Positions 1,301 through 18,080 of a stretch of 64,000 nucleotides of DNA are shown here, one piece after another. Numbering within the stretch: the first letter of the stretch is position 1; every line of letters starts with the position of its first letter. The notes beneath the pieces are model-generated. The model saw nothing but the letters and a program-made list of their open reading frames with translations. It had not been told where the DNA came from and ran no database searches. The DNA is from Azorhizobium caulinodans ORS 571 (lineage in GTDB: Bacteria > Pseudomonadota > Alphaproteobacteria > Rhizobiales > Xanthobacteraceae): assembly GCF_000010525.1 (NCBI RefSeq), contig NC_009937.1, forward strand, positions 2,051,501-2,115,500. Direction: 5' to 3'. Made by a program: the position numbers and the translations under genes.

Positions 1301-1312
1301 GCCGGCCCCCCC

Positions 1313-3025
1313 ATGCGCAAACCCCAGAATCTCGTCTATGGCGTGGACGATCTGCCGCCCGCGCGCGTCGGCCTTTTGAGTGCGCTCCAGCAGGTGGCCT
1401 TCCTCAGCGCGCTGCTGAGCGTGCCCAGCATCGCGCTCGCAAACCTCGGGCTCGATGACGACCAGTTCCTGCGCCTGGCAGCGGCGACCCTGTTCTGTTC
1501 CGGCTTCGTGCTGGTCCTCCAGGGCTTTGGCATCGGCGGGGTCGGCGCCCGGCTGTTCTATCCGCTCCAGTGCACCACGGCGGCCATTCCAGCGCTCGTC
1601 TATGCCTCGTCCGCCGGCCTGTCGCTCGCCGAGAACTTCACCATGGTCGGCATGGTGGGCGTGTCCCAGGTGCTGTTTTCCTTTGTCATCTTCCGCCTGC
1701 GGGCGATCTTCACGGTGGAGGTGGCGGGGCTCGCGGTATTTCTCATCGGTGTCGGACTCGGCCAGCAGGGCCTCTTTCTCGTGCTGGACCTGCCGCCGGA
1801 CAGGCCCGACGCCATCGCCCATCTCACCATCGTCGGGGTGACGCTGGCGACGCTGGTCATCCTGCATGTGTATGTGCAAAGCCGGTTAAGGCTGTTCACC
1901 AACCTCATCGGCCTCTGCGTGGGGATGGTACTGAGCGTCGCGCTGGGCCAACTCGATCCCCATGACCTGCGCCTGTTCGCGGATGCGCGCGTCGTGGATT
2001 TCCCCCGTCCGCCGCTTTTCGGCTGGGCCTTCAACCTCGGCGCGGTCATCCCCTTCATGGTCACCGGCTTCGTCTTCGCGCTCACCTCCATGGGCGTGCA
2101 GACCATTGCCCAGCGCAACAATGACCGCGACTGGAAGAGCCCGGACCTGGTCTCCATCGGCCGGGGCATCCGTGCGGAAGGCGTGATGCATATGATGGCG
2201 GGTTTTCTGAACGCCATGCCCATGGTGGCGTCGGGCGGCGCAGTGGCGCTGGCGGCGGCCTCCGGCTGCACGGCACGAGCGCTCGCCTTCTGGACCGGCG
2301 GCCTGTTGATGACCTTCTCGCTCCTACCCAAGGTGATCGGCTTCTGGTTGCTGATGCCTGTCTCGGTCACAGGCGCGCTCTTCATCTTCCTGTCCACCTT
2401 CACGACGGTGAACGGCATCCAGCTTGTGGCGAGCCGGGTGCTGGATGCCCGCAAGGTGTTGGCGATCGGAATGGGCTTCGTCGCCGCCATCGCCTACGAG
2501 CCACTGCACCGGTTGCTGGACGGGCAGGTGCCGGGCCTGCGGCTGTTCACCTTCTCCGCCTTCGCGGTGTCCATCCTCGTCACGGTAGTGCTGCTCGCCA
2601 TCTTCCGCATCGGCGTCACCCGCAAGGTGGTGCGGCGCTTTCCGGCCAGCGGTGCCCGGCATGACGACGTGGCGAACTTCATCGAGGCCGAGGGCGCGCG
2701 GTGGAGCGCGCGGGTGGACGTGGTGCAGCGCGCCGCGCAGGTGACCTGGCATGCGCTGGAACTGATCGGCCGCGATTATGTGGATCCCGAACGGCCGGTG
2801 ATCGAGGTGACCACCCGCTATAACGATATCCTGTTCGACATCGTGCTGCGCTACGAGGGCACGGCGCCGGCCCTGGCGAGCCGCCCGCCGACGGCGGAGG
2901 AACTGCTGGAAAATCCTGCGCTGGCGGAGCAGTTGACGGGCTTCCTCATTACCCGCCTCGCGCCGGACCTGAAGATCCAGCGCATCGGCAGTTCGTGGGA
3001 ACTGCACTTCCGCCTGCCGGTATGA
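1313..3025 (+). CDS. NCS2-family nucleobase (xanthine/uracil) permease with a C-terminal cytosolic extension
   Basis: A 570-residue inner-membrane protein. The first ~440 residues carry the many hydrophobic segments of the nucleobase:cation symporter-2 family, including a central segment of the type ALTSMGVQTIAQRNN, where family members hold substrate-binding residues. The substrate is probably a purine or pyrimidine base; which one cannot be read here. After the last membrane segment (about residue 445) there is a ~120-residue soluble tail (roughly 450-570) not needed for transport in ordinary family members. Its pattern (ALELIGRDYV, EVTTRYNDILFDIVLRYEG) suggests a folded regulatory domain, possibly of the HATPase type. 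It follows carbonic anhydrase by 12 bases. Confidence 0.85.
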   Translation: MRKPQNLVYGVDDLPPARVGLLSALQQVAFLSALLSVPSIALANLGLDDDQFLRLAAATLFCSGFVLVLQGFGIGGVGARLFYPLQCTTAAIPALVYASSAGLSLAENFTMVGMVGVSQVLFSFVIFRLRAIFTVEVAGLAVFLIGVGLGQQGLFLVLDLPPDRPDAIAHLTIVGVTLATLVILHVYVQSRLRLFTNLIGLCVGMVLSVALGQLDPHDLRLFADARVVDFPRPPLFGWAFNLGAVIPFMVTGFVFALTSMGVQTIAQRNNDRDWKSPDLVSIGRGIRAEGVMHMMAGFLNAMPMVASGGAVALAAASGCTARALAFWTGGLLMTFSLLPKVIGFWLLMPVSVTGALFIFLSTFTTVNGIQLVASRVLDARKVLAIGMGFVAAIAYEPLHRLLDGQVPGLRLFTFSAFAVSILVTVVLLAIFRIGVTRKVVRRFPASGARHDDVANFIEAEGARWSARVDVVQRAAQVTWHALELIGRDYVDPERPVIEVTTRYNDILFDIVLRYEGTAPALASRPPTAEELLENPALAEQLTGFLITRLAPDLKIQRIGSSWELHFRLPV

Positions 3026-3026
3026 G

Positions 3027-3052
3027 GCGGGAGCGGGTGTACCCGCCCCCGC
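3027..3052. terminator. Bidirectional hairpin between convergent genes
   Basis: Two 12-base arms (3027-3038 and 3041-3052) pair with a single mismatch around a 2-base spacer. The hairpin sits exactly in the 33-base gap between the permease stop (+) and the dehydrogenase stop (-). There is no clear T-run, so it may work with Rho or as an RNA 3' end stabiliser. Confidence 0.5.
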
Positions 3053-3058
3053 ATAGGA

Positions 3059-4084
3059 TCAGCCGGCGATGGCCGTCAGCTTGTCCAGCAGCGCCTGAGG
3101 GATCTTCACGCCCTCGCGCGCGGTGCGCACCCGTGCCGCCGCGCGCCGCCCGCCGGGAAGGCGCGCACCCTCCTGATCGGTGATGGCGGCGAACAGATGG
3201 GCCATCCGCGCCGCCGCGCTCGGCCCGGCGAGCGGGCCGGGATCGACGGCGATGAACATCTGGCCCGTGCGCGGCGAGCCGCCCGTATTGTCCGCGAAGG
3301 AGGAGGCATCGATGGAGAGATGCGCGCCCGTGAGCCAGGCCGCGAACATCTCCACGATGAGCGCAAGCCCCGCGCCCTTGTAGCCGCCTGCGGGCACCAT
3401 GGTTCCGCCGGCGAGCGCCGCCTTCGGGTCCGTGGTGGGCTGGCCGGCCTTGTCCAGGGCCCAGCCGAGGGGAATGGCTTCTCCCCGCTGGTCGTGGACC
3501 ACGATCTCGCTTTTCGCCACCACGCTGGAGGACTGATCCAGCACCAGCGGTTCGCCATCGGCGCGGGGCACGGCGAAGGCGATCGGGTTGGTGCCGAACA
3601 CCGGCTTCGTGCCCCCCACGGGTGCGATGGAGGCGGGCGCATTCACGAAGCCGAGCGCCATCAGGCCTGCCTTCGCGATGCGCTCCACGTGATAGCCGAC
3701 AACGCCGCAATTGTAGGAGTTGGTCACCGCCAGCGCCGCGATGCCCTGTGCTCGCGCGGCATCGAGAAGGGCCGGCAGGCCGAGGTCGATGGCCGGATGG
3801 GCGAAGCCGTCCGCGGCATCCACGCGCACCAGGCCGGGGCGCGGGCGGGAGAGGGTGGGCGTGGCCTTGCCGTCGATCTTGCCCACCTTGGCATGGGCGC
3901 AATAGGTGGGCAGGCGGGCGAGGCCGTGGCTGTGCACGCCTTCCGCCTCTGCCGCCACGACCGAGGCGGTGACGGAGGGCTCATTGGCCGGGCTGACGCC
4001 GCTCGCCTGTAAGGCGGCTCGGGTGAGGGCCTCCACCTCGGCAAGGGAGAGGGAGGCCATGGGGACGGATGCCGGGGCGCTCAT
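3059..4084 (-). CDS. Ldh family oxidoreductase (malate/L-lactate/sulfolactate dehydrogenase type)
   Basis: A 341-residue NAD(P)-dependent 2-hydroxyacid dehydrogenase of the type-2 malate/L-lactate family, oxidising a 2-hydroxy acid to the 2-keto acid. Family signatures seen are VHSHGLARLPTY near residue 50, the GTNPIAFAVP segment and GGYKGAGLALIVE in the C-terminal half. It is the last gene of the long minus-strand catabolic block, and its ATG overlaps the hyuB stop by four bases (ATGA), so translation is probably coupled. In context it may process a hydroxy acid from ring opening or aldol cleavage. The substrate is not predictable; relatives act on sulfolactate, malate, ureidoglycolate or 2,3-diketogulonate. 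Confidence 0.88.
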   Translation of the reverse strand: MSAPASVPMASLSLAEVEALTRAALQASGVSPANEPSVTASVVAAEAEGVHSHGLARLPTYCAHAKVGKIDGKATPTLSRPRPGLVRVDAADGFAHPAIDLGLPALLDAARAQGIAALAVTNSYNCGVVGYHVERIAKAGLMALGFVNAPASIAPVGGTKPVFGTNPIAFAVPRADGEPLVLDQSSSVVAKSEIVVHDQRGEAIPLGWALDKAGQPTTDPKAALAGGTMVPAGGYKGAGLALIVEMFAAWLTGAHLSIDASSFADNTGGSPRTGQMFIAVDPGPLAGPSAAARMAHLFAAITDQEGARLPGGRRAAARVRTAREGVKIPQALLDKLTAIAG

Positions 4085-5826
4085 GCGGCGACCCCGGTCT
4101 TAGCGCGGGCAGGGCTCTTGCTGCCACAGGTCTTGACGGTGGCGGCCGCGGCGGCAAGCTCGGGCGCGCCATAGAGGGTGCGGGCCGCCTCGGGCGTCAC
4201 GAGGCCTTCCGCCAGATCCTCGGCGAGCTTGGCCCGGTCGCGGCCCTTCGGGTCGCCGAAGCCGCCGCCGCCGGACGTCTTGATGGTCACGAGATCACCG
4301 GCGGAGAGCGGAATGCCGGAGACCTTGGAATTGAGGCTCGCGGTGGTGCCGTCCGCATGGGTGACGGTGGTCGAAGAGAGCGAGCCCGGCTCGCCGCCCT
4401 TGATGCCATAGGGCGGGAAGCGGAAGCGCTCGAAATTGGTGGAGAGGGAGCCTTCCGCCGCCTCCAGCCGGAACTCGCGCACGAGGCCGAGGCCGCCGCG
4501 ATGGGTGCCGGCGCCGCCTGAATCCGGCAGCAGGCCGTAGCGGGTGAACACCACGGGGTATTTGGCTTCCACCATCTCGATGGGGGCATTGGTGTTGTTG
4601 TGGAGGCCGCAGGAGAGGGCGCTCGCGCCATCACCGCCCGCATGGCCGCCCCAGCCGCCCACCTCGATGTCGAAATAGACCTGGCGCTTGGCGTTCGGCT
4701 GCACCAGCGAGACCGCATAGACATAGGAGATGGCGTAATAGGCCGCTGGAATGCGCTCCGGCGCGATCTGGGCCAGCGCGCCGAAGACGCAGGTGGCGAT
4801 GCGGTGGTTCACCACCATGCGGCCGACGACGGGGGCGGGGAACTGGGCGTTCACGACGCTGCCTTTGGGCAGATTCACGCTCACGGGCCGGTAGCAGCCG
4901 GAATTGGCCGGAATGTCCGAGCCCAGTGCCGCCAGCAGGGCGTAATAGACCGCCGAGCAGGTCATGGCCGGCGTGTTGTTCACCGGGCCACGCACCTGCG
5001 GGCTGGAGCCGGCGAAGTCGAGCGCGATGGTGTCGCCCTTCTTGGTGATGGTGATCTCAAGGCGGATGGGCGTGTCCGACTGGCCGTCGTCATCCACCGT
5101 CTCCACGAAGGAGGCGGTGCCGTCCGGCAAAGCGGCGATGGCCGCGCGCATCATGCGCTCGGAGCCGTCGAGGATGGCGGACATGGCGGCGGAGAGGTTG
5201 GCGCTGCCATACTTCTTCGCGATGCGCGCCACTGCCCGCGCGCCGATGCCGAGCGCGGCGATCTGGGCGTTGAGGTCGCCGCGCGTCTCATCCGGCTGGC
5301 GCACGTTGTAGAGCAGCATCTCGAACACGCCGGTGTTGAGCGTGCCCTTGTCCACGAGGCGCAGTGGGGGAATGCGGATGCCTTCGTGGAAGATCTCGGT
5401 GGCCGCCGCATAATAGGAGCCGGCAGCTCCCCCGCCCACATCCACATGGTGGCAGAGGGTGCCGACGATGCCGACGCGCTCGCCATCCACGAACACCGGC
5501 CGGAAGGTCTGGATGTCCGGCAAATGCTGGCCGCCGGCATAGGGATCGTTGGTGACGATGACGTCGCCCTCGTTCCAGCTCTCCAGCGGAATGTACTGCT
5601 CCAGAATGGTCTTCAGGCAGTCCGACATGGAGTTGAGGTGCACCGGAATGCGCGCCGACTGGGCGATGTTGCGCCCCTGCGCATCAAAGACGGCGGTGGA
5701 GAAATCGAGGATCTCGCGTACGACCGTGGAGCGGCTGGTGCGCCAGATGGTGATGCTCATTTCCTCGGCGGCGGCGACCAGCGCATTGCGGATCACCTCG
5801 AGGCGGACGGGATCGATGGGGCTCAT
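4081..5826 (-). CDS. hyuB: Hydantoinase B / oxoprolinase family subunit
   Basis: A 581-residue subunit of an ATP-dependent cyclic-amide hydrolase, or of a related acetone/acetophenone carboxylase-type enzyme. It begins with the typical DPVRLEVIRNALVAAAEEM segment; ILDFSTAVFDAQGR and NDPYAGGQHLPDI follow, and a Gly-rich C-terminal segment (TSGGGGFGDPKGRD) closes the domain. It lies 21 bases after hyuA, its obligate partner, and overlaps the Ldh gene by four bases. Family members open hydantoins, 5-oxoproline, N-methylhydantoin or caprolactam, or carboxylate ketones. The neighbouring amidase favours a cyclic amide, but the substrate is inference. Confidence 0.9.
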   Translation of the reverse strand: MSPIDPVRLEVIRNALVAAAEEMSITIWRTSRSTVVREILDFSTAVFDAQGRNIAQSARIPVHLNSMSDCLKTILEQYIPLESWNEGDVIVTNDPYAGGQHLPDIQTFRPVFVDGERVGIVGTLCHHVDVGGGAAGSYYAAATEIFHEGIRIPPLRLVDKGTLNTGVFEMLLYNVRQPDETRGDLNAQIAALGIGARAVARIAKKYGSANLSAAMSAILDGSERMMRAAIAALPDGTASFVETVDDDGQSDTPIRLEITITKKGDTIALDFAGSSPQVRGPVNNTPAMTCSAVYYALLAALGSDIPANSGCYRPVSVNLPKGSVVNAQFPAPVVGRMVVNHRIATCVFGALAQIAPERIPAAYYAISYVYAVSLVQPNAKRQVYFDIEVGGWGGHAGGDGASALSCGLHNNTNAPIEMVEAKYPVVFTRYGLLPDSGGAGTHRGGLGLVREFRLEAAEGSLSTNFERFRFPPYGIKGGEPGSLSSTTVTHADGTTASLNSKVSGIPLSAGDLVTIKTSGGGGFGDPKGRDRAKLAEDLAEGLVTPEAARTLYGAPELAAAAATVKTCGSKSPARAKTGVAA

Positions 5827-5847
5827 GGCTCTTGTCCTTGGAGGCGA

Positions 5848-7896
5848 TCAGTGGGTGGCCGCGCGCTCGGCGATGAGCGCGCCCGTGGCATGGGCGCGGA
5901 TGGTCCAGCCGGCAGGCACATAAGTGGCCGTGTAGGTCTCCTCCACCACGGCCGGGCCGGGCACGCCCTCGGGGCCGATGGCCTCGCGCGCCCAAACCTT
6001 GGTCTCGACAAAGCCGCCGCGCCCATAGACGGGGCGGGTCTTCGAACCGGAGACCGTACCGGCCGAGGCGGGCGCCGGGGTCGGCTTGGCGAGGCGGCCG
6101 ATGGCGGTGAGGCGCAGGGCCACGATCTCCACCGGTACGGCGGGCTCGTCATAGGAGAAGCGCTGCTTGTGGATGGCGTGGAAGGCGCTCGTCGCCGCCG
6201 CGACACCACGGGGCGAGAAATCCGCCGTGTCCAGCGGCACGCGCAGGTCGAAGGCCTGGCCCGCATAGCGCAGGTCCACCGCCCATTCGAAGCCGCAGTT
6301 CTCCGGTCGCACGCCGTCTTCCGCCAGGAGGCGGTTGGCTTCGGCGGCGAGCGCCTGCGCCTTCTGGGCCATGGAGGGGGCGAGATCGGAGAACAAGCCG
6401 ATCTGCGTGGCGGAGAGGTCGTGGGTGATGTCCGACCACAGGATGCCCCAGGCGGACAGCGTGGAGGCGTGGGCGGGGAAGATCACCTTGCGCATCCCGA
6501 GTTCCTCGGCCACCTCGCAGGCGTGCACGCCGCCGGCGCCGCCGAAGGACAGGAGGGCGAAGTCCTCCGGGTCCATGCCCTTCTCGAACAGCGAGAGGCG
6601 GGTGGCGGTGGCCAGGCTCGAATTGGTGACGGCGATGACGCCTGCCGCCGTCTCCTCCGGCGAGAGGCCGAGCTTGGCGGAAACCGCCTCGGCGGCCTTG
6701 GCGGCGGCGTCCCGGTCGAGGCCCATCTTGCCGCCCATGAAGCTGGAGCCGTCCAGCCGGCCCAGCAACAGGTTGGCATCCGTCACGGTGAGCTGCTGGC
6801 CGCCGCGCCCGTAGCAGGCCGGGCCGGGTTCGGCGCCTGCGCTGTGCGGACCGATGCGCAGGCGTCCGCCGTCATCCACCCAGGCGATGGAGCCGCCGCC
6901 CGCGCCGATGGTGCGCATCTCGATCATGGGCAGGCGGACGGGCAGGCCATCCACCTCGCCCTCATTGACCATGGCGACGGCCCCTTCATGCACCACGGAG
7001 ACGTCGAAGCTGGTGCCGCCCATGTCCACCGCGACGAGGTTCGGCTCGTCGAGGTCGGCCGCGAGGCGCTTGGCCGCCGCCGCCCCGCCCGAGGGGCCGG
7101 AGAGCAGCAGCCGGGCGGGCTCGCGCCCGGCCTTGGCGAGGCCGGAGACGCCGCCGTTCGACTGCACGAGATAGACCTGCGTGGAGGGCACCTCTTCCTT
7201 GAGTTTGCCCGCGAGGCGGTCCGTATAGGTCTGCACCACGGGCACCAGCATGGCGTTGAGCACGGTGGTGGACATGCGCTCATATTCCCGCAGCTCCGGC
7301 GAAATATCGCTGGAGAGGGTGATGGCGACGCCCGGCAGCAGTTCGCGCAGGATTTCTCCGGCCCGGCGCTCATGGGCCGGGTTGGCATAAGCGTGCAGGA
7401 AGCAGATGGCGACCGACTTCACCTCCGCCTCGCGCAGCTTGCCGGCGAGGAAGGCGACGGAGCGGTCGTCCAGCGGCTTCAGCACGCGCCCGTCCGCGCC
7501 GATGCGCTCGGAGACGCCGAAGCACAGGCGGCGCTTCACCAGCGGCGCCGGGGGCGAGGCGGTGATGGCATAGACGTCGGTGCGGCCGTGCCGGCCGATC
7601 TGCATCACGTCCTCGAAGCCGGCCGTCGTCACCACTGCGCCGAGAGGCAGCTTGCGCTCCAGCACCGCGTTGGTGGCGATGGTGGTGCCGTGCAGCAGGT
7701 ACTGCACCTGATCCAGCGAAAAGCCGAAGCGGGCACTCGCTTCCTTGATGCCGGTGAGGAGACCGATGGACGGATCCGAGGGCGTGCTCGGCGTCTTCAT
7801 CTGGTGGATCTCACCCGTCGAGGCGTCGAGAATCTCGATGTCGGTGAAGGTGCCGCCGATGTCGACGGCGATGCGGATGGGGGCCTGGGAGGTCAT
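5848..7896 (-). CDS. hyuA: Hydantoinase A / oxoprolinase family subunit
   Basis: A 682-residue ATP-binding partner of HyuB with an actin-like ATPase fold. The phosphate-binding motif DIGGTFTD is at residues 12-19, followed by LLHGTTIATNAVLERK, VDMGGTSFDVSV in the second lobe and GAGGGSIAWVD. The ATG at 7896 starts 7 residues before the conserved strand; the frame continues upstream but into low-quality sequence antisense to the aldolase. ATP is expected to phosphorylate the amide (or enol) oxygen before hydrolysis or carboxylation. Spacing is tight on both sides (19 bases from the aldolase, 21 to hyuB), supporting one operon. Confidence 0.9.
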   Translation of the reverse strand: MTSQAPIRIAVDIGGTFTDIEILDASTGEIHQMKTPSTPSDPSIGLLTGIKEASARFGFSLDQVQYLLHGTTIATNAVLERKLPLGAVVTTAGFEDVMQIGRHGRTDVYAITASPPAPLVKRRLCFGVSERIGADGRVLKPLDDRSVAFLAGKLREAEVKSVAICFLHAYANPAHERRAGEILRELLPGVAITLSSDISPELREYERMSTTVLNAMLVPVVQTYTDRLAGKLKEEVPSTQVYLVQSNGGVSGLAKAGREPARLLLSGPSGGAAAAKRLAADLDEPNLVAVDMGGTSFDVSVVHEGAVAMVNEGEVDGLPVRLPMIEMRTIGAGGGSIAWVDDGGRLRIGPHSAGAEPGPACYGRGGQQLTVTDANLLLGRLDGSSFMGGKMGLDRDAAAKAAEAVSAKLGLSPEETAAGVIAVTNSSLATATRLSLFEKGMDPEDFALLSFGGAGGVHACEVAEELGMRKVIFPAHASTLSAWGILWSDITHDLSATQIGLFSDLAPSMAQKAQALAAEANRLLAEDGVRPENCGFEWAVDLRYAGQAFDLRVPLDTADFSPRGVAAATSAFHAIHKQRFSYDEPAVPVEIVALRLTAIGRLAKPTPAPASAGTVSGSKTRPVYGRGGFVETKVWAREAIGPEGVPGPAVVEETYTATYVPAGWTIRAHATGALIAERAATH

Positions 7897-7915
7897 GACA
7901 CGTTCCGGATGAGGA

Positions 7916-8659
7916 TCACAGGAGGCCTTCGGAGCCGAGGCTGTCCACGAGGCCGTGGAAGGCGGAGCGGATGAGGGCGTATTGCGCGCCCACAACCGTG
8001 ATGTCGGCGCGGTGCAGCTTGCCGAAGGCGCGCTCGGGCGCCGTCCAGGCGGGCAGCACCCAGGGCTTGCCAGCGGCGCGGGCGGCGGCGCCGATGCGGG
8101 CGATGTCGTTCTTGTCGCTTTCGCTGAAGCTGTAGCGCGGGTTGCCGGCGGCCATGGACAGGTCGGTGGGGCCGGCGAAGAGGCCGTCCACGGTGGGCAG
8201 AGCGGCGATGGCCTCCACGTCATTGAGGGCTTCGCGGCTCTCGATCATCGGCCAGCACTTGGTGCGGGCGTTCTCATTGGCGCTGAAGCTGTCGTCCACC
8301 GGGCCGTAGCCCATGGTGCGGCCACCCGCATAGGAGCGCACGCCAAGCGGGGGATATTTGGTGGCCGCCGTCACGGCCTTCGCATGATCGAGCGCGCCGA
8401 TGTGCGGGATGATGATGGCGTCCGCCCCGAAATCGAGCGCCTGCTGGATCGGCTCGGTGAGCGGGCCGAGCACCTTGGCATAGACCTTGATGCCGAGCGC
8501 CCGGCAGAAGGGGATCACCCGGTCGAGGTCATCGAGATTGAAGGTGCCGTGCTCGATGTCGAGCACCACCGCCGTGAAGCCCGCGCCCCGCGCAATCTCG
8601 ATGTGCGGGAAAGAGGGCGAGGAGAGCCAGAAGGCGAACTGGGCGAGCGACTGGGACAT
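7916..8659 (-). CDS. HpcH/HpaI-family aldolase (2-keto-3-deoxy acid class II aldolase)
   Basis: A 247-residue metal-dependent lyase with a TIM-barrel fold, cleaving a 4-hydroxy-2-oxo acid to pyruvate (or a related oxo acid) and an aldehyde. Seen: VLDIEHGTFN near residue 35, DFGADAIIIPHI, the substrate-loop segment GVRSYAGGRTMGYG, and GLFAGPTDLSMAAG near the metal and pyruvate site. The ATG at 8659 has GGAGAT upstream at good spacing; an in-frame ATG at 8734 adds 25 unlikely residues. It heads the catabolic sub-block aldolase-hyuA-hyuB-ldh, separated from the transporter genes by 133 bases containing a hairpin. The substrate is unknown. Confidence 0.88.
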   Translation of the reverse strand: MSQSLAQFAFWLSSPSFPHIEIARGAGFTAVVLDIEHGTFNLDDLDRVIPFCRALGIKVYAKVLGPLTEPIQQALDFGADAIIIPHIGALDHAKAVTAATKYPPLGVRSYAGGRTMGYGPVDDSFSANENARTKCWPMIESREALNDVEAIAALPTVDGLFAGPTDLSMAAGNPRYSFSESDKNDIARIGAAARAAGKPWVLPAWTAPERAFGKLHRADITVVGAQYALIRSAFHGLVDSLGSEGLL

Positions 8660-8768
8660 GAGCGATCTCCGGGCGAAAGGGTGAGTTCCCCCGTTCCCGC
8701 GCAGGGCGCAGGTTGGGGCGGACGGGTCTGGCAAGGTCAGGTGCGGGCGGATCCCGCGAACTTGGGGC

Positions 8769-8792
8769 CGGGCGGGCGCAAGGCCCGTCCGG
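8769..8792 (-). terminator. Hairpin directly after the last transporter gene
   Basis: Arms of about 10 bases pair with one G-T type mismatch around a short loop and begin at the permease stop codon (8793). There is no T-run on the minus strand, so it is better read as a partial terminator or RNA stabiliser, perhaps setting transporter transcripts apart from the downstream catabolic genes. Confidence 0.35.
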
Positions 8793-9587
8793 TCACTTCA
8801 CAAAGGTCTTCGCAAGTCCGGCGGTGCGGTCCACCACGATGACGACGGCAAGGGTGAGCACCACCAGGAGGACGGAGATGGCGGCGACCAAAGGATCGGC
8901 TTGCTGTTCCACATGGCGATACATGGCGACCGGAAGCGTGGAGATGCGCGGGCCGGTCATGAAGAGCGAGAGCACCACCTCGTCGAAGGAGACGAGGAAG
9001 CAGAGGGCGGCGGTGGACACCATGCCCGACCGCATCATCGGCAGGGTGACGCGGAAGAAGACGGTGAGCGGCGGCGCACCGAGCGTGGAGGCGGCCTCCT
9101 CCACCGGGATCGGCAGCGTGGCGAGCGCGGTGGAGAGCACGCGGATGGCATAGGGCAGGGTGACGATGAGATGCGCCACCACGAGCCCCTGGAAGGTGCC
9201 GAGCAGGCCGAGCGGGGCGAACACCAGCAGGATGGCGAGACCGAGCACGATGGTCGGCAGCAGCAGCGGGGCGGTGAACAGGCCGCCCAGCGCCTCGGCG
9301 CCCGGCGGCTTGAGCCGCACCAGCGCATAGGCCGCGGGCAGCCCGACCAGCAGGGAGATGACCGTCACCACCACCGCCAGCAGGAGGCTCACCGAGAAGG
9401 CGGCGGTCATCTTGCTGTCGGAGAAGATGGCGCCGTACCACTTCAGGCTCCAGCTCGACGGCGGGAAGTTGAGGTAGGCGTCCCCGCTCAGGGACATGGG
9501 CACGATGATAAGGATCGGCGCCAGCAGGAAGAGGAACATCACGCCGGCGGCGATCTTCAGCGCTGGGGAGACGGGGCGTTCATCCAT
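8793..9587 (-). CDS. ABC transporter permease, PotC-like
   Basis: A 264-residue inner-membrane permease with about six hydrophobic segments. The cytoplasmic coupling loop EEAASTLGAPPLTVFFRVTLP (around residues 165-185) is the EAA motif that contacts the ATPase. It belongs to the spermidine/putrescine/iron/opine class. It is the fourth gene of the importer set (binding protein, ATPase, permease, permease) and starts 12 bases after the first permease. In this cluster its job is to import the compound degraded by the surrounding enzymes. Confidence 0.88.
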   Translation of the reverse strand: MDERPVSPALKIAAGVMFLFLLAPILIIVPMSLSGDAYLNFPPSSWSLKWYGAIFSDSKMTAAFSVSLLLAVVVTVISLLVGLPAAYALVRLKPPGAEALGGLFTAPLLLPTIVLGLAILLVFAPLGLLGTFQGLVVAHLIVTLPYAIRVLSTALATLPIPVEEAASTLGAPPLTVFFRVTLPMMRSGMVSTAALCFLVSFDEVVLSLFMTGPRISTLPVAMYRHVEQQADPLVAAISVLLVVLTLAVVIVVDRTAGLAKTFVK

Positions 9588-9599
9588 GTGCCGTCTCCG

Positions 9600-10475
9600 T
9601 CAGGCAATGCGCCGCAGGGCGCGGGTGTAAAGGGCCAGCGCTGCGCCGAACAGCACCAGGATGATCATGGAGAGCGTCGCCGCAACCGGCCAGTTGAGGG
9701 TCACGATGGCCTGATCGTAGATCTCGGTGGCGAGCAGGAACACGCGCCCGCCGCCCAGCAGCTTCGGCGTGACGAAGGAGGAGATGGCGAGCACGAAGCA
9801 GAGCAGGCAACCCAGCGCCATGCCCGGCGCGGTGAGCGGCAGCACCACGCGCCAGAAGGTCTTCAGCGGTGTCGCGCCGAGCGTGAGCGCTGCTTCCTCG
9901 CAGCGCGGGTCGAGCCGGCCGAAGCCCGAGAGCAAGGCGAGGATCATGTAGGGCATCAGGATTTCGGTGAGCCCGATGATGACGCCCGTGAGGTTGAACA
10001 TGAGGCGCGGCGGCGTCAGTCCGACGAGGCCGATCACATTGGCGATGAGCCCCTGCGAGGACAGGATGGCGATCCAGCCATAGGTGCGCACAACGGCGGA
10101 GGTGAGCAGTGGCGCAATGACCAGCACCAGAAGGATGGTGCGCCACAGGCCGGACGAACGGTGCAGGTAGAGCGCGATGGGGTAGGAACACAGCAGCGTC
10201 AGCACCGTGATGAAGAGGCTGACGCCGATGCTGTTGCCGATCAGCTCCAGCGTGAAGCTGTCGCCGAGCACGCTGGACCAGGTGGTGAGCGAAAAGGTCT
10301 CCACCAGCGCGCCGGTCGCCTGCGATTCCTTGAAGGACATGCGCAGCAGGTTGAACACCGGCCATAGGAACCCCACCGCATTCACGAGCGCGATGGGCAG
10401 GAGCAGCAGCATGGCAACCGCGGTCGGGCTCATGGGGCGCGCCGCGCGGGGGGCGGGAACGGCGAGGGTGCTCAT
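9600..10475 (-). CDS. ABC transporter permease, PotB-like
   Basis: A 291-residue inner-membrane permease with an N-terminal hydrophobic segment (MLLLLPIALVNAVGFLW), a periplasmic region and further membrane spans. The EAA-type coupling loop is seen as EEAALTLGATPLKTFWRVVLP around residue 210. Its ATG overlaps the ATPase stop by four bases, so the two are translationally coupled. It should form a heterodimer with the following permease. Confidence 0.88.
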   Translation of the reverse strand: MSTLAVPAPRAARPMSPTAVAMLLLLPIALVNAVGFLWPVFNLLRMSFKESQATGALVETFSLTTWSSVLGDSFTLELIGNSIGVSLFITVLTLLCSYPIALYLHRSSGLWRTILLVLVIAPLLTSAVVRTYGWIAILSSQGLIANVIGLVGLTPPRLMFNLTGVIIGLTEILMPYMILALLSGFGRLDPRCEEAALTLGATPLKTFWRVVLPLTAPGMALGCLLCFVLAISSFVTPKLLGGGRVFLLATEIYDQAIVTLNWPVAATLSMIILVLFGAALALYTRALRRIA

Positions 10476-11572
10476 GATGCGGCGTACACGAAGGTGTCCT
10501 GCGGGCGCCAGGACAGGGTGACGGGGGTTCCCGGCGCCAGCACCTGCTCGCCGCCGCGCGTGGAGGCTTCCGTCTTCAGCAGGGTGCCGCCGGCCTCCAC
10601 CTCATATTCGAGGATGTCGCCGGCGAAGGTGGCCCGGGTGACGGTGCCGGAGAGGCTGTGAAGGTCGCCGCTTGCCGGCGCGGCGCCGGGAGAAAGCACG
10701 ATGCGATGCGGACGCACCATGACCTCAACCGGGCCGTTGAAGCCGGGCGCGGCGACCTTCACGCCCGCCACCTCTGCGATACCCCCCGCAGCGGTGCCGG
10801 ACAGGCGATTGATGCGGCCCACGAAGCCCGCCACGAAGGCGGTTTTCGGGTGTTCATAGATTTCGTGAGGCGTGCCGAGCTGCTCCAGACGGCCGTGGTT
10901 CATCACTGCCACCTTGTCGCAGATGGTGAGGGCTTCCATCTGGTCGTGGGTCACGAAAATGGCGGTGATGCCGAGCCGCTTCTGGATGTCGCGGATCTCG
11001 TTGCGCATCTCGTCGCGCAGCTTGGCGTCGAGGTTGGAGAGCGGTTCGTCGAGCAGCAGGATGGAGGGCCGCACGACGAGCGCGCGGGCGAGCGCCACGC
11101 GCTGCTGCTGGCCGCCGGAGAGCTGGGCGGGGCGGTGGTGCTCCTTGCCGGTGAGGCGCACCATGGCGATGGCCTCGCGCACCCGCTCCGCCGCCTCGGC
11201 TTTCGAGACCTTGCGCATCTCAAGGCCGAAGGCGACGTTCTTCGCCACGTCCATGTGCGGGAAGAGGGCATAGGACTGGAACACCAGCCCCATGTCGCGC
11301 CGGTAGGGCGGCACGCCCGTGATGTCGTGCCCGTCCACGACGATATGGCCGGAGGTGGAGGGAGCAAGGCCGGCGATCATCCGGAGCGAGGTGGTCTTGC
11401 CGCAGCCGGAGGGGCCGAGAAAGGCGACCAACTCGCCCTTGGCCACGTCGAGATTGAGGTCGTCCACGGCATTGAAAGTGCCGTAGCGGCGGGTGAGGCC
11501 GCGCAGGGAGAGGAAGCCCTCGCCCTGCGTCTGGCGCTGGATCTCGTCGGGCGAGGTGCGGATCATGGCCAT
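10472..11572 (-). CDS. ABC transporter ATP-binding protein, PotA-like
   Basis: Energises the importer. Walker A is GPSGCGKTT, the Q-loop segment reads VFQSYALFPHMDV, the signature is [15 protein letters not shown], and Walker B with D-loop is ILLLDEPLSNLDAKLRDE; the switch His follows in IFVTHDQMEAL. A C-terminal TOBE-type domain (about residues 270-366) is usual for polyamine/opine/iron importers and may bind a regulator. Two in-frame ATGs six bases apart (11572, 11566) are possible; a GAGG motif sits 9 bases before the second, which may be the true start. It lies about 5 bases after the binding-protein gene. Confidence 0.92.
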   Translation of the reverse strand: MAMIRTSPDEIQRQTQGEGFLSLRGLTRRYGTFNAVDDLNLDVAKGELVAFLGPSGCGKTTSLRMIAGLAPSTSGHIVVDGHDITGVPPYRRDMGLVFQSYALFPHMDVAKNVAFGLEMRKVSKAEAAERVREAIAMVRLTGKEHHRPAQLSGGQQQRVALARALVVRPSILLLDEPLSNLDAKLRDEMRNEIRDIQKRLGITAIFVTHDQMEALTICDKVAVMNHGRLEQLGTPHEIYEHPKTAFVAGFVGRINRLSGTAAGGIAEVAGVKVAAPGFNGPVEVMVRPHRIVLSPGAAPASGDLHSLSGTVTRATFAGDILEYEVEAGGTLLKTEASTRGGEQVLAPGTPVTLSWRPQDTFVYAAS

Positions 11573-11577
11573 GCGCC

Positions 11578-12624
11578 TCACCGGCTGGCGGGCAGCACGC
11601 GGCGGCGCCACTGTTCGCCGATGGCGTCACGCACCTTGGCAAGCGCGATCCAGTCCACCGGGATCACCTTGTCCATGAACTTCACGGCGGTGCGGTCGAG
11701 CGCTTCCGGCGAGATGTCCGCCTTGGCGTTGGTGGGGGCGTAGAACATGCTCTCTGTGAAGGCCTTCTGGGCCTCGGGGCTCAGGGCATAGTTCACGAAG
11801 GTCTTGGCCGCATCGCCGCCGGGGCCGTTGGCCACGAGGTTGATGGTGTTGATCTGGAACACCGTGCCTTCCTGCGGGATCGTGGCCTTGAGCTTGCCGC
11901 CGGAGGTCTGGCTGTTGACCTGCGCGCGGGCGTTCCAGCCGGCGCCGACGGCGGCCTGCCCCGTGACGATGGGCGCATAGACCTCGGGCTTGGGCTCCCA
12001 CGTCTGGACATTGGGGGCGATCTCGACCATGGCCGCGATGCCCTTGCTCACGTCCTTCAGATAGTCCGTGCCGCCGTTCGCCTTGTTGAGGATGATGACC
12101 AGCGAGAGGCCCTGGATGTCGGGCATGCCGGGGATCACCACCTTGCCCGCATAGCCCTTGTCCGCCATGGCCATCCAGGACTTCGGCGGCTCCTTCACCT
12201 GATCGGTGTTGTAGAGCATGACGAGGTTGTCGAAGGTCACCGCGACGCCCGCCACGTCCGGAATGCGGGCGTTGGGATAGAGATCCTTCACGTTGGGCGC
12301 GTTGGTCTCGTCGATCTTGGTGAAGAGGCCCTCGTCGGTGCCGGCCTTCGAGACCGAGACGTCCATGATGGCGACGTCGGTCTGCGGCGCGGCCTTCTGG
12401 GCACGCAGGTTGCCGAGCATGGCGGCGGAGGAGGGCAGGGGGAAATAGGTGACCTTGATATCCGGATGCGCCTTCATGAAGGGCTCGATCACGGCCTTCG
12501 TGTAACGCTCCTGGAACAGGCCCGAATAGGCCATGACGGTGATGTTGCTCTCGGCCCAGGCGGCCTGAGAGAAGAGACCGAGGGCGAGCGCCGCAGCGGC
12601 CCCGAACTTCGCAGACGTCGTCAT
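11578..12624 (-). CDS. Periplasmic substrate-binding protein of the PotD (polyamine/opine) class
   Basis: A 348-residue extracytoplasmic solute receptor. A Sec signal peptide covers residues 1-24 with cleavage likely after AWA. The mature part shows the PotD-type opening (ITVMAYSGLFQERYTKAVIEPF) and the hinge segment LVMLYNTDQVKEPPKSW. It feeds the ATPase and two permeases directly downstream. No lipobox is present, so it is a free periplasmic protein. The ligand is unknown; the class binds polyamines, opines, ferric ions and other small charged molecules, and here it is probably the substrate of the Hyu/amidase pathway. Confidence 0.9.
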   Translation of the reverse strand: MTTSAKFGAAAALALGLFSQAAWAESNITVMAYSGLFQERYTKAVIEPFMKAHPDIKVTYFPLPSSAAMLGNLRAQKAAPQTDVAIMDVSVSKAGTDEGLFTKIDETNAPNVKDLYPNARIPDVAGVAVTFDNLVMLYNTDQVKEPPKSWMAMADKGYAGKVVIPGMPDIQGLSLVIILNKANGGTDYLKDVSKGIAAMVEIAPNVQTWEPKPEVYAPIVTGQAAVGAGWNARAQVNSQTSGGKLKATIPQEGTVFQINTINLVANGPGGDAAKTFVNYALSPEAQKAFTESMFYAPTNAKADISPEALDRTAVKFMDKVIPVDWIALAKVRDAIGEQWRRRVLPASR

Positions 12625-12724
12625 GTGGATCCCCTCTGGAAAAGGTGTGGGACGGGCCGGTGGTCCAGCCTCGGTTTCATGGTGACGGCCGGGCGGCTGA
12701 GTGTTGGCTCAGCCGCCCTCATGT

Positions 12725-13396
12725 TCAGGTGGCGGGCGCGAGCTTGGCTTCCACCATCGCGCGGGCGCCGGTGATGTCCGGCAGCTTCTCGCCGGCGGCG
12801 AGGCGGGCGAGCAGCTTGATCTCGTTCTCCTGCATCTGGATGGCGCGGGCGGCGATGGCGGGCGCCTGCGCCGGCTTCAGCACCACCACGCCGCTCTCGT
12901 CGCAGAGCACGGCGTCGCCCGGCTCGATGGTCTGGCCGCCCACATTCACCGGCACGTTCATCGCGCCTTCGAGGCCGAGAAGCTTGGTGGTGATGGGCGA
13001 GGGGCCACGGCACCACATGGGCATGTCCACCTTCACGATCTCGGAGAAATCGGTGGCCGGGCCGTCGATGACGCCGGCCTTCACGCCGGCCATCTTCATG
13101 GCGTTGGTGATGACGCCGCCCCAGCAGGCGTGCTTGTCGTCGCCGCAGCGCTCGATCACCACCACGTCGCCGGGGCGCACATAAGCGGTGAGATAGTGCA
13201 GCAGCGTGGAATCCGCGTGCGGGATGCGCAGCGTCACGGCGGTGCCGGCGACGCGCTTGCCCGGCAGCACGGCGCGGATCTCGCGGTCCACGAAGCCGGA
13301 ATGCAGCACATGGCCGATGGTCGCCACCTCGCACTTCTCAAGCTCGGTCACGAGCTCGGGCGCGATCTGGGCGGGCATGGGATTGACGATGAACAT
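12725..13396 (-). CDS. RraA-like / 4-hydroxy-4-methyl-2-oxoglutarate aldolase-type protein
   Basis: A 223-residue protein of the RraA/HMG-aldolase fold. Catabolic members are divalent-metal aldolases or oxaloacetate decarboxylases that release pyruvate. Seen: VATIGHVLHSG near residue 27, RPGDVVVIERCGDD, WGGVITNAMKMAGVKAGVIDG (the family Gly-Gly and metal/phosphate loop, about residues 92-112) and PGDAVLCDESGVVVL. Placement inside a catabolic operon favours an enzyme over an RNase E inhibitor. It is the second pyruvate-type lyase in the block, alongside the HpaI-type aldolase. It starts 14 bases after the amidase stop. Confidence 0.82.
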   Translation of the reverse strand: MFIVNPMPAQIAPELVTELEKCEVATIGHVLHSGFVDREIRAVLPGKRVAGTAVTLRIPHADSTLLHYLTAYVRPGDVVVIERCGDDKHACWGGVITNAMKMAGVKAGVIDGPATDFSEIVKVDMPMWCRGPSPITTKLLGLEGAMNVPVNVGGQTIEPGDAVLCDESGVVVLKPAQAPAIAARAIQMQENEIKLLARLAAGEKLPDITGARAMVEAKLAPAT

Positions 13397-13410
13397 AAGT
13401 GCGCTTCCGC

Positions 13411-14217
13411 TCAGGCGAGAACGTGGTGATTGGCGACGGGGACGTTGGCCCGCACCTTCTCGGTGTAGCCGAACTCCAGACGGCCGGTGGTGAAGCCCAC
13501 CCCGTCGGAGGCCTGCGCGGTGATGTGGCCCCACGGGTCGATGACCATGGAATGGCCCCAGCACCACTTCTTGCCGCCCGCGTGCGGGCCGGTCTGGCCG
13601 ACCGCGAGGAACCAGGTCTGGGTCTCGATGGCGCGGGCGCGGGCGAGGATTTCCCAGTGATCCTTGCCGGTCATCAGCGTGAAGGCGGCGGGCAGGACGA
13701 TGATGTCCGCGCCCTTGTCGCGCAGCTTGCGGAACAGCTCGGGGAAGCGGATATCGTAGCAGATGGCGCAGCCGACCGTCTTGCCGCCGAGCTCGTACGT
13801 GACCACGTCCTCGCCGCGCGAGACGGTGTCGCTCTCGCGATAGACGGTGCCGCCGGTGATCTCCACGTCGAACAGGTGGATCTTGCGGTAGCGCGCCAGT
13901 TCCTCGCCATCGGGGCCGAAGACGACGGTGGTGTTGTAGAAGGAATTGCCCTCGCGCTCGGCGACGCTGCCGGCGTGGATCGCGACCTTCAGCTTTTTCG
14001 CGAGCCCCTTCATGAGCTGGTAGGACTCGCCATCCGGGAAGGTCTCGGCGGCGTCCTGCGCCTGCGCCGGCGTGTCGCCGAGGAAGGCGTAATATTCCGG
14101 CAGCACGACGAGGTCGGGCTTGTCGGCGGCGACAGCCGCTTCGATCAGGGAGGCGGCGGTCGCGAGATTCGCGGCCTTGTCCCCCTGCGTGTTCATCTGG
14201 ACCAGCGATACCTTCAC
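13411..14217 (-). CDS. Carbon-nitrogen hydrolase (nitrilase superfamily, Nit/omega-amidase type)
   Basis: A 268-residue amidase predicted to hydrolyse a carboxamide or N-carbamoyl group with release of ammonia. The triad is complete: Glu41 (LPEYY), Lys112 (YRKIHLF) and Cys153 (CAICYDIRFPE). A GTG at 14217 is chosen because AGGAG stands 7 bases upstream and the protein then begins with the family's first strand; an ATG at 14259 adds 14 unlikely residues. It is the first structural gene after the LysR gene, and the 118-base gap before it contains a strong dyad operator. It may finish hydrolysis of the linear amide made by HyuAB. Confidence 0.9.
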   Translation of the reverse strand: MKVSLVQMNTQGDKAANLATAASLIEAAVAADKPDLVVLPEYYAFLGDTPAQAQDAAETFPDGESYQLMKGLAKKLKVAIHAGSVAEREGNSFYNTTVVFGPDGEELARYRKIHLFDVEITGGTVYRESDTVSRGEDVVTYELGGKTVGCAICYDIRFPELFRKLRDKGADIIVLPAAFTLMTGKDHWEILARARAIETQTWFLAVGQTGPHAGGKKWCWGHSMVIDPWGHITAQASDGVGFTTGRLEFGYTEKVRANVPVANHHVLA

Positions 14218-14266
14218 GTCAGGTCTCCTGCCTTGGGTGACGGGAGCAGACCAGACCAAACCACGT

Positions 14267-14291
14267 CCGACAAACGCGAAATAATTGTCGG
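14267..14291 (-). promoter_or_regulatory. LysR-type operator dyad in front of the amidase operon
   Basis: Perfect inverted repeat with arms CCGACAA (14267-14273) and TTGTCGG (14285-14291) and an 11-base AT-rich spacer, centred about 62 bases upstream of the amidase GTG. The geometry matches LysR recognition sites. The LysR gene is immediately upstream on the same strand, so this is probably the activation site for the catabolic operon. Confidence 0.6.
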
Positions 14292-14335
14292 CGCTTACAA
14301 GAAATGCTTATGACAGCGGCACGGGCGGCGCGTGC

Positions 14336-15298
14336 CTATTTTGTGTGCGATGCAATGCGGATCTGGTTGCGGCGCGCATTGGCCGATGGCGTGAGCGTGG
14401 CCGCGTCTTCCGCCTTCGCCACTTGCGCCGCCATCCGGGCGATCAATGCCGGCAGGGTGCTGCCCGGCTCCTCGCGATAGACGGCGTGGAGGTGCAGGGG
14501 CGGCAGGTCCGCGTCCACGTCGAGCTGCATCAGTTCGCCCCGTTCCACCATCTCGCGGGCCACCTCAGTCGGCAGGACGGCGACGCCCATGCCGTCGCGG
14601 GCGAGGCGGGTGATGGTGGCGAGTGAGTTGGAATTGAGGATGCGCACCAGATTGAGGTTTGCATCGAGGCCGGCGGACTCCATCAGGCGCAGCACGTTCT
14701 GGTGGGGTTGCGAGCCCTTTGAGAAGGCGAAGATGGGGTTCGCCACGATGTCCACGAGCGAGAGGCGGCGCCCGTGCAGGCCGAGGTGTGGCGCGGCAAA
14801 CCAGTGGCACTGATAGGTGCACAGGTCGATATTGCTGCACTCGGCCGCCAGTACGGGCCCGGCGATCAGCGCCAGATTCACCTGCCGGTCCAGCAGCAGG
14901 CGGGAGACCGTGAGGCTGTTATCCACCGTGAGGTCGATGTCCACGTCCGGATAGGTGGCCTTCACGGCTTCGATCAGCTTGGGCAGCCACGCATAGACGA
15001 TGGAATCGATGGTGCCGATGGCGATGCGCCCGCGGAGGCTGCTGGCCTCGCTGACCCCGAGCCGCAATTCTTCGGTCAGGCGAACGATGGTTTCCGCCTG
15101 CGCCAGCGCCCGCTCGCCCTGCGGGGTCAGGCTCACATTGCGCAGGTCACGCTCGAACAGCCGCACGCCGAGATCGCGTTCGAGGGTCGCGATGCGGTTG
15201 GAAACAGCCGCCTGGGTCGTGCACAGCTTGTCCGCCGCGCTGGAGAAGCTCCGCAGCCGGGCGACCCACACAAAGGTTTCCAGGAAACGGATATTCAT
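14336..15298 (-). CDS. LysR-family transcriptional regulator of the catabolic block
   Basis: A 320-residue regulator. The winged HTH fills residues 1-60 (FLETFVWVARLRSFSSAADKL then QAAVSNRIATLERDLGVRLFERD), followed by an effector-binding domain of the periplasmic-binding fold (about residues 90-300). The ATG at 15298 places the HTH at the extreme N-terminus as in the family; an upstream ATG (15376) would add 26 unrelated residues. It is encoded in the same direction as the operon it probably controls, rather than divergently as is common for LysR genes. The likely effector is the imported substrate or an intermediate. Confidence 0.9.
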   Translation of the reverse strand: MNIRFLETFVWVARLRSFSSAADKLCTTQAAVSNRIATLERDLGVRLFERDLRNVSLTPQGERALAQAETIVRLTEELRLGVSEASSLRGRIAIGTIDSIVYAWLPKLIEAVKATYPDVDIDLTVDNSLTVSRLLLDRQVNLALIAGPVLAAECSNIDLCTYQCHWFAAPHLGLHGRRLSLVDIVANPIFAFSKGSQPHQNVLRLMESAGLDANLNLVRILNSNSLATITRLARDGMGVAVLPTEVAREMVERGELMQLDVDADLPPLHLHAVYREEPGSTLPALIARMAAQVAKAEDAATLTPSANARRNQIRIASHTK

Positions 15299-15405
15299 CG
15301 GCGTGCGCGGTCTCCGGCCAGTGGCGGAACAGACAGGCGCCGATGATGGGCTCTGGGGGACCGAACTGCAATGCAAGCGATGCGCTGCCGGTCCCCCATT
15401 TCGCC

Positions 15406-15615
15406 TCAGGGGCGCCTGCTCTGATCGGGCGGTACGCGCACGTCCGGCGGGCGACGATCGTCCGGAGCGCTGTCCTCATATTCGGCGTCGTTCGGCGCAA
15501 GTGGCCCCTCCAACGGCGGCCGGGCCGGCGAGGGGCGGTCATTGAGGACTGCATCCTCATTGGCCGGGTCGACCACGAGCGGGTTCTGGTCAAGGGTGCG
15601 CGGGTCGCGGGTCAT
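15406..15615 (-). CDS. Small proline- and aspartate-rich protein, probably disordered
   Basis: A 69-residue product with no hydrophobic core, about one fifth proline, and many Asp/Arg residues; it contains repeated short runs such as PSPARPPLEGP and PPDVRVPPDQ. The start is supported by GGGAGG four bases before the ATG. It lies between the LysR gene and a divergent alpha/beta hydrolase. I do not recognise a family. It could be a stress-related disordered protein; a spurious frame is less likely given the ribosome binding site. Confidence 0.55.
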   Translation of the reverse strand: MTRDPRTLDQNPLVVDPANEDAVLNDRPSPARPPLEGPLAPNDAEYEDSAPDDRRPPDVRVPPDQSRRP

Positions 15616-15721
15616 GAAGCCTCCCTGTCTGTGTTTGGGGCTTCAACGGAAGGCGGACGGCTTCGTTCCGCCATGTTGCACCGCGCCTTGATCCGGGGCG
15701 GGCATTCCGTAATGTTGTATT

Positions 15722-16414: not shown

Positions 16415-16465
16415 CCTCTCCGCCGGAAGCGGAGCCGCGAGCGGAGAACCGCCCGCAGCCCGCGC

Positions 16466-17099: not shown

Positions 17100-17126
17100 C
17101 TTTCGGGCCCCGGCCTAACCTTTGTG

Positions 17127-17261: not shown

Positions 17262-17276
17262 GGATGATTCCGCCGG

Positions 17277-18071: not shown

Positions 18072-18080
18072 GGCGTTTCC

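Follow-up and report, generated by a model that had tools for sequence, protein, structure and literature searches.

The single-contig genome of Azorhizobium caulinodans ORS 571 (5,369,772 bases) was analysed here over one 64-kb stretch, referred to below as the window, in which positions 3059-15298 hold eleven genes on the minus strand, all intact and with zero internal stops. The first gene of this block, lysR (14336..15298), encodes a LysR-type regulator of 320 amino acids (aa) (Pfam LysR, as LysR_substrate/HTH_1) and occupies the equivalent position in the related loci L013-L016 and L101-L106. It is followed, on the same strand, by genes for an amidase of the Nit1/Nit2 branch of the nitrilase superfamily (13411..14217, 268 aa; CN_hydrolase); an RraA-fold enzyme (rraA, 12725..13378, 217 aa; PF03737, RraA-like); a periplasmic solute-binding protein with a PotD/PhnS/Fut-type fold (11578..12624; SBP_bac_8); an ATP-binding cassette (ABC) ATPase with a TOBE domain (10472..11566; ABC_tran+TOBE), overlapping the next gene by 4 bases; two ABC permeases (9600..10475 and 8793..9587; BPD_transp_1 in both); an HpaI/GarL-like protein (hpaI, 7916..8659, 247 aa; PF03328, HpcH_HpaI); the ATP-binding subunit (hyuA, 5848..7896, 682 aa; Hydantoinase_A) and the metal-dependent subunit (hyuB, 4081..5826, 581 aa; Hydantoinase_B) of an ATP-dependent lactamase/hydantoinase; and an NAD(P) dehydrogenase of the Ldh_2 family (ldh, 3059..4084, 341 aa). 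The most likely starts of HyuA and RraA are 7896 and 13378 (or 13396), respectively, rather than those of the longest open reading frames. An earlier note on this DNA had described eleven one-strand genes of these families with mostly tight spacing. The intact reading frames and the Pfam assignments agree with the families and the common strand; tight spacing holds for seven of the ten junctions, which comprise two overlaps of 4 bases, four gaps of 11-21 bases and one of 32 bases, and does not hold for three gaps of 100, 118 and 133 bases (from lysR to ldh: 118, 32, 100, 11, -4, 12, 133, 19, 21 and -4 bases).

Conservation as a unit and the lysR-amidase gap

The block is one conserved unit, beyond what chance would produce. 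Full eleven-gene synteny is present in Azorhizobium doebereinerae (L013) and in three Xanthobacter genomes (L014-L016), with protein identities of 75-97%. In these four comparisons, DNA similarity to the window by blastn extended over 15303-3056, 15303-3063, 15298-3132 and 15298-3131, that is, from lysR to ldh, and stopped within approximately 75 bp of the two ends of the block. Outside the block, L013 shares one further blastn stretch (window 16902-15426), while the flanks of the three Xanthobacter loci had no blastn similarity to the window, save for a flanking ATPase gene in L015 that resembles the ATPase gene of the block (66-69%). Two comparisons of Xanthobacter with Xanthobacter had the block alone in common. 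Similarity limited in this way by the edges of the block has the look expected of a cassette that was moved as a unit, as may have happened here. The GC content of the block (0.682) matches that of the rest of the window (0.679), and hence there is no compositional mark of foreign origin. One locus from another family of the order (L104) contains all eleven genes; L105 and L106 contain ten, hpaI being absent; L101 and L102 contain nine, without hpaI and with no ldh within 1.9 kb past hyuB. L103 is truncated by a contig end and holds hyuA only of HyuAB. The earlier note had asked for a genome search for the conserved neighbourhood and had set beforehand, as the refuting outcome, that homologous genes never co-occur elsewhere; homologues do co-occur, with the whole block syntenic in four other genomes and a full copy in L104, and the block stands. 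HpaI of the window type is present in 5 of 149 genomes of the family and, at E<=1e-45, in 5 of 385 genomes of the class (own genome counted in both), the other four of the latter being merely 41-46% identical; its nearest named matches are from Azorhizobium doebereinerae and Xanthobacter.

The gap between lysR and the amidase gene contains what is probably the LysR operator of the amidase promoter, as judged from the bases that are conserved: an inverted repeat, GACAA-N11-TTGTC (14269..14289, minus strand), and an upstream box, CATAAGCATTTCTTGT (14297..14312, minus strand). The repeat is invariant in 5/5 aligned lysR-amidase gaps and the box is kept in 5/5 with one base variable, while the start and the 3' part of the gap vary. 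A repeat pattern derived from the site itself had no second match in the window (0.01 expected). Pattern searches also detected the inverted repeat in the corresponding gaps of L122 and L123, from Aminobacter and Shinella, and the box in L104; by eye, the repeat is merely degenerate in L101-L106, and related forms of the box are present in L101-L103, L105 and L106. The operator pattern was not found in L040, L042, L107 or L121, and in L040 and L042 a permease gene of the tripartite ATP-independent periplasmic (TRAP) type precedes the amidase gene. A search of positions 1-20000 with Rfam at gathering thresholds gave zero matches to a riboswitch or other RNA element, and a sigma-70 promoter scan gave 0 matches against 0.8 expected; a terminator scan found 7 against a shuffle mean of 4.0 and was not used as evidence.

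Active sites and the importer

The amidase has a complete Glu-Lys-Cys triad (Glu41, Lys112 and Cys153), as the earlier note had read it, and the triad is present in 26/26 loci checked. Its best solved match is 2w1v (Nit2, nitrilase homolog 2) and its best NCBIfam model is that of deaminated glutathione amidase, although against the two models for that enzyme it reached 186 of 500 and 128 of 355 bits, both below cut-off. According to passages in PMC5485471, human omega-amidase acts on L-2-hydroxysuccinamate and L-2-hydroxyglutaramate, and the enzyme from rat liver uses the 2-oxo forms. The human enzyme belongs to the branch in which the block amidase falls. HyuA keeps Asp12, Asp291 and GAEPGP, and HyuB keeps Asp41, His101, Asp104 and His127 (aligned to CapB, 6yra_B); these correspond to Asp11, Asp295 and GxxPGP and to Asp41, His99, Asp102 and His124 of the caprolactamase CapAB. 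Part of PMC8453981 describes that mutating the equivalent ATP-site and metal residues of caprolactamase abolished or nearly abolished activity. With their catalytic residues complete, the amidase and HyuAB look competent. The scores of HyuA and HyuB against the caprolactamase equivalogs were 525 and 319 bits, the cut-offs being 1000. Six further HyuA matches (31-41%) are present in the genome, and one HyuA-like match there (G000:C1:2434621-2436666) has a TGA within the matched stretch, from either a broken gene or a match overrunning the gene end. The best solved match of Ldh is 1wtj, a delta1-piperideine-2-carboxylate reductase (231 bits versus 152 for the next), and Ldh scored below cut-off against the sulfolactate, ureidoglycolate, malate/lactate and 3-dehydro-gulonate dehydrogenase models.

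RraA has an aldolase fold without the arginine that serves the enolate. Its AlphaFold2 model (predicted local distance difference test, pLDDT, 94.8) had 3noj as the best Foldseek match (template modelling score, TM, 0.93), and alignment mapped Arg123, Asp124 and Glu199 of 3noj, in which residues carry the same numbers as in PMC5065237, to Thr109, Asp110 and Glu186. Passages in PMC5065237 state that Arg123 of 4-hydroxy-4-methyl-2-oxoglutarate (HMG) aldolase stabilises the enolate, that the Ala mutant was below detection (in earlier work cited there) and that R123K had a 181-fold lower kcat. Position 109 is Thr in 51/53 RraA copies, Ala in one and Arg in one, the last being 28% identical and annotated as a 4-carboxy-4-hydroxy-2-oxoadipate (CHA) aldolase. 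As the relatives were collected by similarity to a query of this type (T-type), Thr109 is a trait of the subfamily and not a set of independent events. The metal-ligand positions Asp110 and Glu186 of the window protein are Asp in 50/51 and Glu in 37/51 rows of relatives; Arg77, Asp80, Gly88, Thr130 and Asp160 are invariant in 51/51 rows of the subfamily, and His83 and Cys85 nearly so. For the genomes from which L101-L103 and L112 come, one TGA was flagged inside the RraA match, but the aligned 214-215 residues hold no stop and the TGA therefore sits at the end of the gene. Two tandem RraA copies at L054:9752-11066 have Thr109 but Gly for the metal-ligand Asp110.

The HpaI-like protein of the window carries Lys62 at the position of the pyruvate-binding Arg70 of aldolases, a residue to which part of PMC8560999 ascribes importance in specificity, C-C cleavage and enolate stabilisation. 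His37, Glu140 and Asp166 are present in 22/22 HpaI copies. We take the His to be catalytic and the Glu and Asp to be metal ligands. Position 62 is Lys (K-type) in 13 of the 22 copies and Arg (R-type) in 9, and 12/13 K copies versus 2/9 R copies have a T-type RraA within 12 kb, in a sample that is biased since many K-type copies were found via RraA. Of the 14 copies with such a neighbour, 12 thus have Lys; the R-type pair (L044, L049), 31-33% identical to the window protein, counts against a perfect rule of lysine and linkage. A plasmid sample seeded with HpaI (12 of 26 records) contained 11 K copies, all 11 with the amidase and/or a T-type RraA in the stretch, and a single R copy with neither. 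The 14 other records include five from Sinorhizobium fredii that show the 46% identity of the lone R-type copy, so the count of R-type HpaI is probably too low, and some records have second places that lie outside the sample. K-type copies form one clade (support 84/93), which argues for the lysine as one change that was kept linked and not many independent ones. On an Agrobacterium plasmid (L128:14761-15559), the amidase that lies next to a K-type HpaI matches in two pieces, with no gene annotated there, as if interrupted.

The model of the binding protein (pLDDT 86.8) has a PotD/Fut-type fold according to Foldseek. Its structural neighbours, at 16-25% identity, bind polyamines, gamma-aminobutyric acid, opines, metal-citrate, sugar phosphate and iron, and so the ligand cannot be read from the fold. 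Polyamine uptake was considered and is not supported by score (56 bits against the PotD equivalog, whose cut-off is 582). In the alignment, the Asp in the FWMD stretch of PotD is Asn259 in the block protein, invariant in 11/11 sequences, as is Arg233. The acidic positions of PotD are presumably those that contact the polyamine. The replacement of this importer by TRAP genes in some relatives, described below, and Asn259 in place of the acidic PotD residue would fit an acid rather than a polyamine.

Probable core and added genes among relatives

Relatives of RraA were present at E<=1e-50 in 17/385 genomes of the class and 26/297 of the order, and at E<=1e-60 in 3/398 of the phylum, the own genome being counted each time. 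A tally of 51 loci was drawn from the window, L013-L016, 15 stretches (covering 16 of 21 class matches in other genomes), 20 of 25 order matches, 2 of 2 phylum matches and 9 plasmid loci; the last were chosen by hand from 95 (RraA) and 26 (HpaI) records, and the sample is not unbiased. Outside the tally are L017 and L067-L072 (seeded with HpaI), L066 (HyuA) and L073-L075 (amidase), in which no RraA was found, and L009-L012, which duplicate L013-L016.

In 25 of the 51 loci, counting the window and L013-L016, the amidase gene directly adjoins rraA and has the same orientation; in L064 hpaI lies between the two. Plasmids of Aminobacter and Shinella have the set LysR-amidase-RraA-ABC alone, without HyuAB, HpaI and Ldh, while those of Ochrobactrum, Ensifer and Microvirga (L132-L134) have the order ABC-hpaI-amidase-rraA-lysR. 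L109 carries, in one direction, ABC genes, hpaI, the amidase gene, rraA, a gene of the gamma-glutamyltransferase (GGT) family and a 2-hydroxyacid dehydrogenase gene. TRAP genes replace the ABC importer in L040-L042, L107, L108 and Roseinatronobacter, and in Paraburkholderia genes of the major facilitator superfamily come after, in the importer role. Importer type (this ABC, TRAP or other, with labels assigned by hand) changed 12 times on a tree of the 51 RraA rows, against a minimum of 2 and a shuffle average of 24.5. The gene content of these loci suggests a core of LysR, importer, amidase and RraA, which HpaI often joins, and points to HyuAB and Ldh as add-ons, since the Aminobacter and Shinella plasmid operons do without HyuAB, HpaI and Ldh. 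Different HyuAB genes, 32-39% identical, are nearby in L065, L107 and L111, on the opposite strand in L065 and L111.

Other arrangements of these genes were also observed. A Thalassospira plasmid (L135:5084-12070) has the amidase, a K-type HpaI and a TRAP transporter, then ethanolamine ammonia-lyase genes, and no RraA. On a Shinella plasmid (L138:1-16612), two T-type RraA genes lie in divergent operons, one with creatininase and serine hydrolase genes and the other with the LysR-amidase-ABC set. An alphaproteobacterial metagenome-assembled genome (L017:232-11975) carries, in one direction, HyuA-HyuB (39% identical to those of the window), an oligopeptide-type ABC importer, a K-type HpaI and a mandelate-racemase-family gene. 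In L066:8012-12516, a TauE-family membrane protein gene lies between HyuA and HyuB (52% and 54% identical to those of the window). Of the genes that flank the block in the window itself, those downstream (341-3025, plus strand) are a carbonic anhydrase gene and then a xanthine/uracil-type permease gene (1313-3025), convergent with ldh, and those upstream (16466-20012, minus strand) are OsmC-like, enoyl-CoA hydratase and AMP-binding genes.

Proposed function and known systems

The block looks like a catabolic operon of a well-known kind whose core has gone unrecognised. We give an even chance to the reading that it is LysR-controlled and transferable and degrades a small carboxylic acid whose side chain bears an amide, most likely the omega-amide of a 2-oxo- or 2-hydroxy-dicarboxylic acid or a close relative. 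The binding protein and the ABC importer would bring the compound in; HyuAB would open a ring-closed amide with ATP; Ldh may interconvert the 2-oxo and 2-hydroxy (or reduced imine) forms; the Nit2-like amidase would yield ammonia and a carboxylate; and RraA, with or without the HpaI-like protein, would perform a metal-dependent lyase or isomerase step that needs no pyruvate-enolate arginine. Amidase, RraA and importer would then be the core, with HyuAB, Ldh and HpaI widening the substrate range. The substrates of omega-amidase, together with 2-oxoglutaramate, which is mostly in the lactam form according to a passage in PMC5485471, suggest how such a compound could offer a lactam to HyuAB, an open amide to the amidase and a hydroxy/oxo (or cyclic imine) pair to Ldh. 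More tentatively, the amidase-RraA(T)-HpaI(K) core may be an undescribed route, in soil and plant-associated proteobacteria, for omega-amides of oxo and hydroxy diacids and for the lactams of these; two pyruvate-aldolase folds that are unrelated to each other would have been jointly turned to new lyase chemistry without the enolate arginine. Searches of an open-access library aimed at the gene combination gave no description of it, most subscription journals lying outside this scope; they brought up PMC10040529 and a metformin paper (PMC9699525), and the main text of the latter contains neither 'RraA' nor 'aldolase'.

A number of observations count against an omega-amide operon with this core. 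The amidase is not beside RraA in 25 of the 51 loci; it is farther off in L044 and L128, and some loci are cut by contig ends. Certain loci have GGT, creatininase or N-formylglutamate amidohydrolase genes near RraA instead of the amidase, and the role of RraA may therefore be wider. Conversely, L073-L075 carry an amidase of 56-58% identity with no RraA seen (L073 is cut beside the amidase), and L135 and L136 have the amidase-HpaI pair without RraA. HyuAB orthologues above 60% are linked to RraA in only 11 of the 51 loci (window, L013-L016 and L101-L106), being limited to Azorhizobium/Xanthobacter and to the loci of the families labelled f255 and f260, while Ldh is limited to Azorhizobium/Xanthobacter and f260. 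Every specific equivalog model examined for the block enzymes scores below cut-off, and the three gaps of at least 100 bases could hold extra promoters.

The earlier note had suggested import and degradation in series, with two aldolases in the set and a final aldol cleavage that would yield pyruvate-level products. An importer, a HyuAB of the ATP-dependent lactamase type, a complete amidase and a dehydrogenase are indeed united in one conserved block, but a fixed series of steps is not general, because HyuAB, HpaI and Ldh are absent from the Aminobacter and Shinella plasmid relatives, which have LysR, importer, amidase and RraA. Cleavage by two ordinary aldolases was not supported, given Thr109 in RraA and Lys62 in HpaI. 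We thus regard as unlikely a scheme in which HyuAB opens a cyclic amide, the amidase frees ammonia, Ldh oxidises a hydroxy acid and RraA and HpaI perform an ordinary retro-aldol reaction to pyruvate: the HMG/CHA aldolase fold of RraA and its metal-ligand positions are retained, as are His37, Glu140 and Asp166 of HpaI, but both arginines are replaced, both substitutions are maintained through linked subfamilies, and in HMG aldolase, as passages in PMC5065237 report, changes at Arg123 left activity undetectable (Ala) or kcat 181-fold lower (Lys). It is also possible, at a fairly low probability, that RraA is a carbinolamide (C-N) lyase that cleaves an N-acyl-alpha-hydroxy acid, or opens the ring of a hydroxylactam (cyclic 2-oxoglutaramate, for example), to a primary amide for the amidase, with Ldh or a 2-hydroxyacid dehydrogenase reducing or oxidising a glyoxylate-type product. 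A reaction that involves no pyruvate enolate would accord with the loss of the enolate arginine, no enzyme set that was observed is smaller than amidase-RraA, and the predominance of the lactam form of 2-oxoglutaramate (in part of PMC5485471) agrees with such a substrate. D-2-hydroxyacid dehydrogenase genes near RraA in L050 and L065 (NCBIfam matches including glyoxylate reductase, below cut-off) and a 75% relative in L109 also favour it; such genes are, however, missing from some operons, and that of L050 is on the opposite strand. Moreover, cleavage of a C-N bond is not known to us from any protein of the RraA fold.

It appears improbable that the block degrades an N-substituted lactam of the opine or Amadori type, with an opine-type binding protein. 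MotA (mannopine) and AgtB (agropinic acid) are among the Foldseek neighbours of the binding protein, but the same list (16-25%) is headed by proteins with other or unknown ligands, including spermidine and metal-citrate binders. In L065:1542-7157, SIS-domain deglycase-like and fructoselysine-kinase-like genes are followed by another HyuA and HyuB, opposite an ABC-RraA-GGT-dehydrogenase operon; the block, however, has no sugar enzymes, and many core operons have no HyuAB. Least credible of all is a set of neighbours without a common pathway, grouped by chance or selfish clustering. The equal GC of block and surroundings (0.682 versus 0.679) and the separate occurrence of its parts would suit it, but conservation stops at the block edges, pairings recur in several families and there is a common control site.

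Some described pathways were considered and set aside. An oxamate/oxalurate route, which we take to involve the GGT-type HpxW, came to mind from GGT genes near RraA in some loci; the window block has none. No nicotinate-type enzyme, as we would expect in Azorhizobium nicotinate catabolism, is among the eleven. Nor do the eleven include any of the genes that we take to be the characteristic partners in caprolactam, creatinine/N-methylhydantoin, allantoin or indole-acetate (IaaCE) degradation.

A testable core, the amidase and the altered RraA, often with the altered HpaI, sits among genes annotated as 'RraA family protein', '4-hydroxy-4-methyl-2-oxoglutarate aldolase' and 'aldolase/citrate lyase family protein'. 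An aldolase annotation is thus borne by proteins that are missing a residue essential for that activity. If the omega-amide reading is true, pathway maps lack one of the ways in which bacteria of soil and nodules reclaim carbon and nitrogen from amides or lactams, and the operon variants indicate which steps are essential and which are added.

Compared with known systems, the block amidase is closest to the Nit2 omega-amidase/deaminated glutathione amidase branch, with the Glu-Lys-Cys triad in a nitrilase fold, but falls under both equivalog cut-offs. HyuAB shares with CapAB of Pseudomonas jessenii, and with the family of ATP-dependent lactamases, hydantoinases and 5-oxoprolinases, the ATP-site aspartates, GxxPGP and the four metal ligands; unlike CapAB, it reaches 525 and 319 of 1000 bits and has amidase, RraA, HpaI and Ldh as partners. 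DpkA (1wtj) is, by sequence score, the best solved relative of Ldh. The HpaI-like protein resembles the class II pyruvate aldolases HpaI and GarL (best solved match GarL, 1dxe, 83 bits) in its active-site His, Glu and Asp, and differs from them in having Lys62 for the pyruvate-binding Arg70. Finally, RraA has the fold (TM 0.93) and the metal-ligand positions, Asp124 and Glu199, of HMG/CHA aldolase of the LigK/GalC type (3noj), whereas the catalytic Arg123 of that enzyme is Thr109 in the block.

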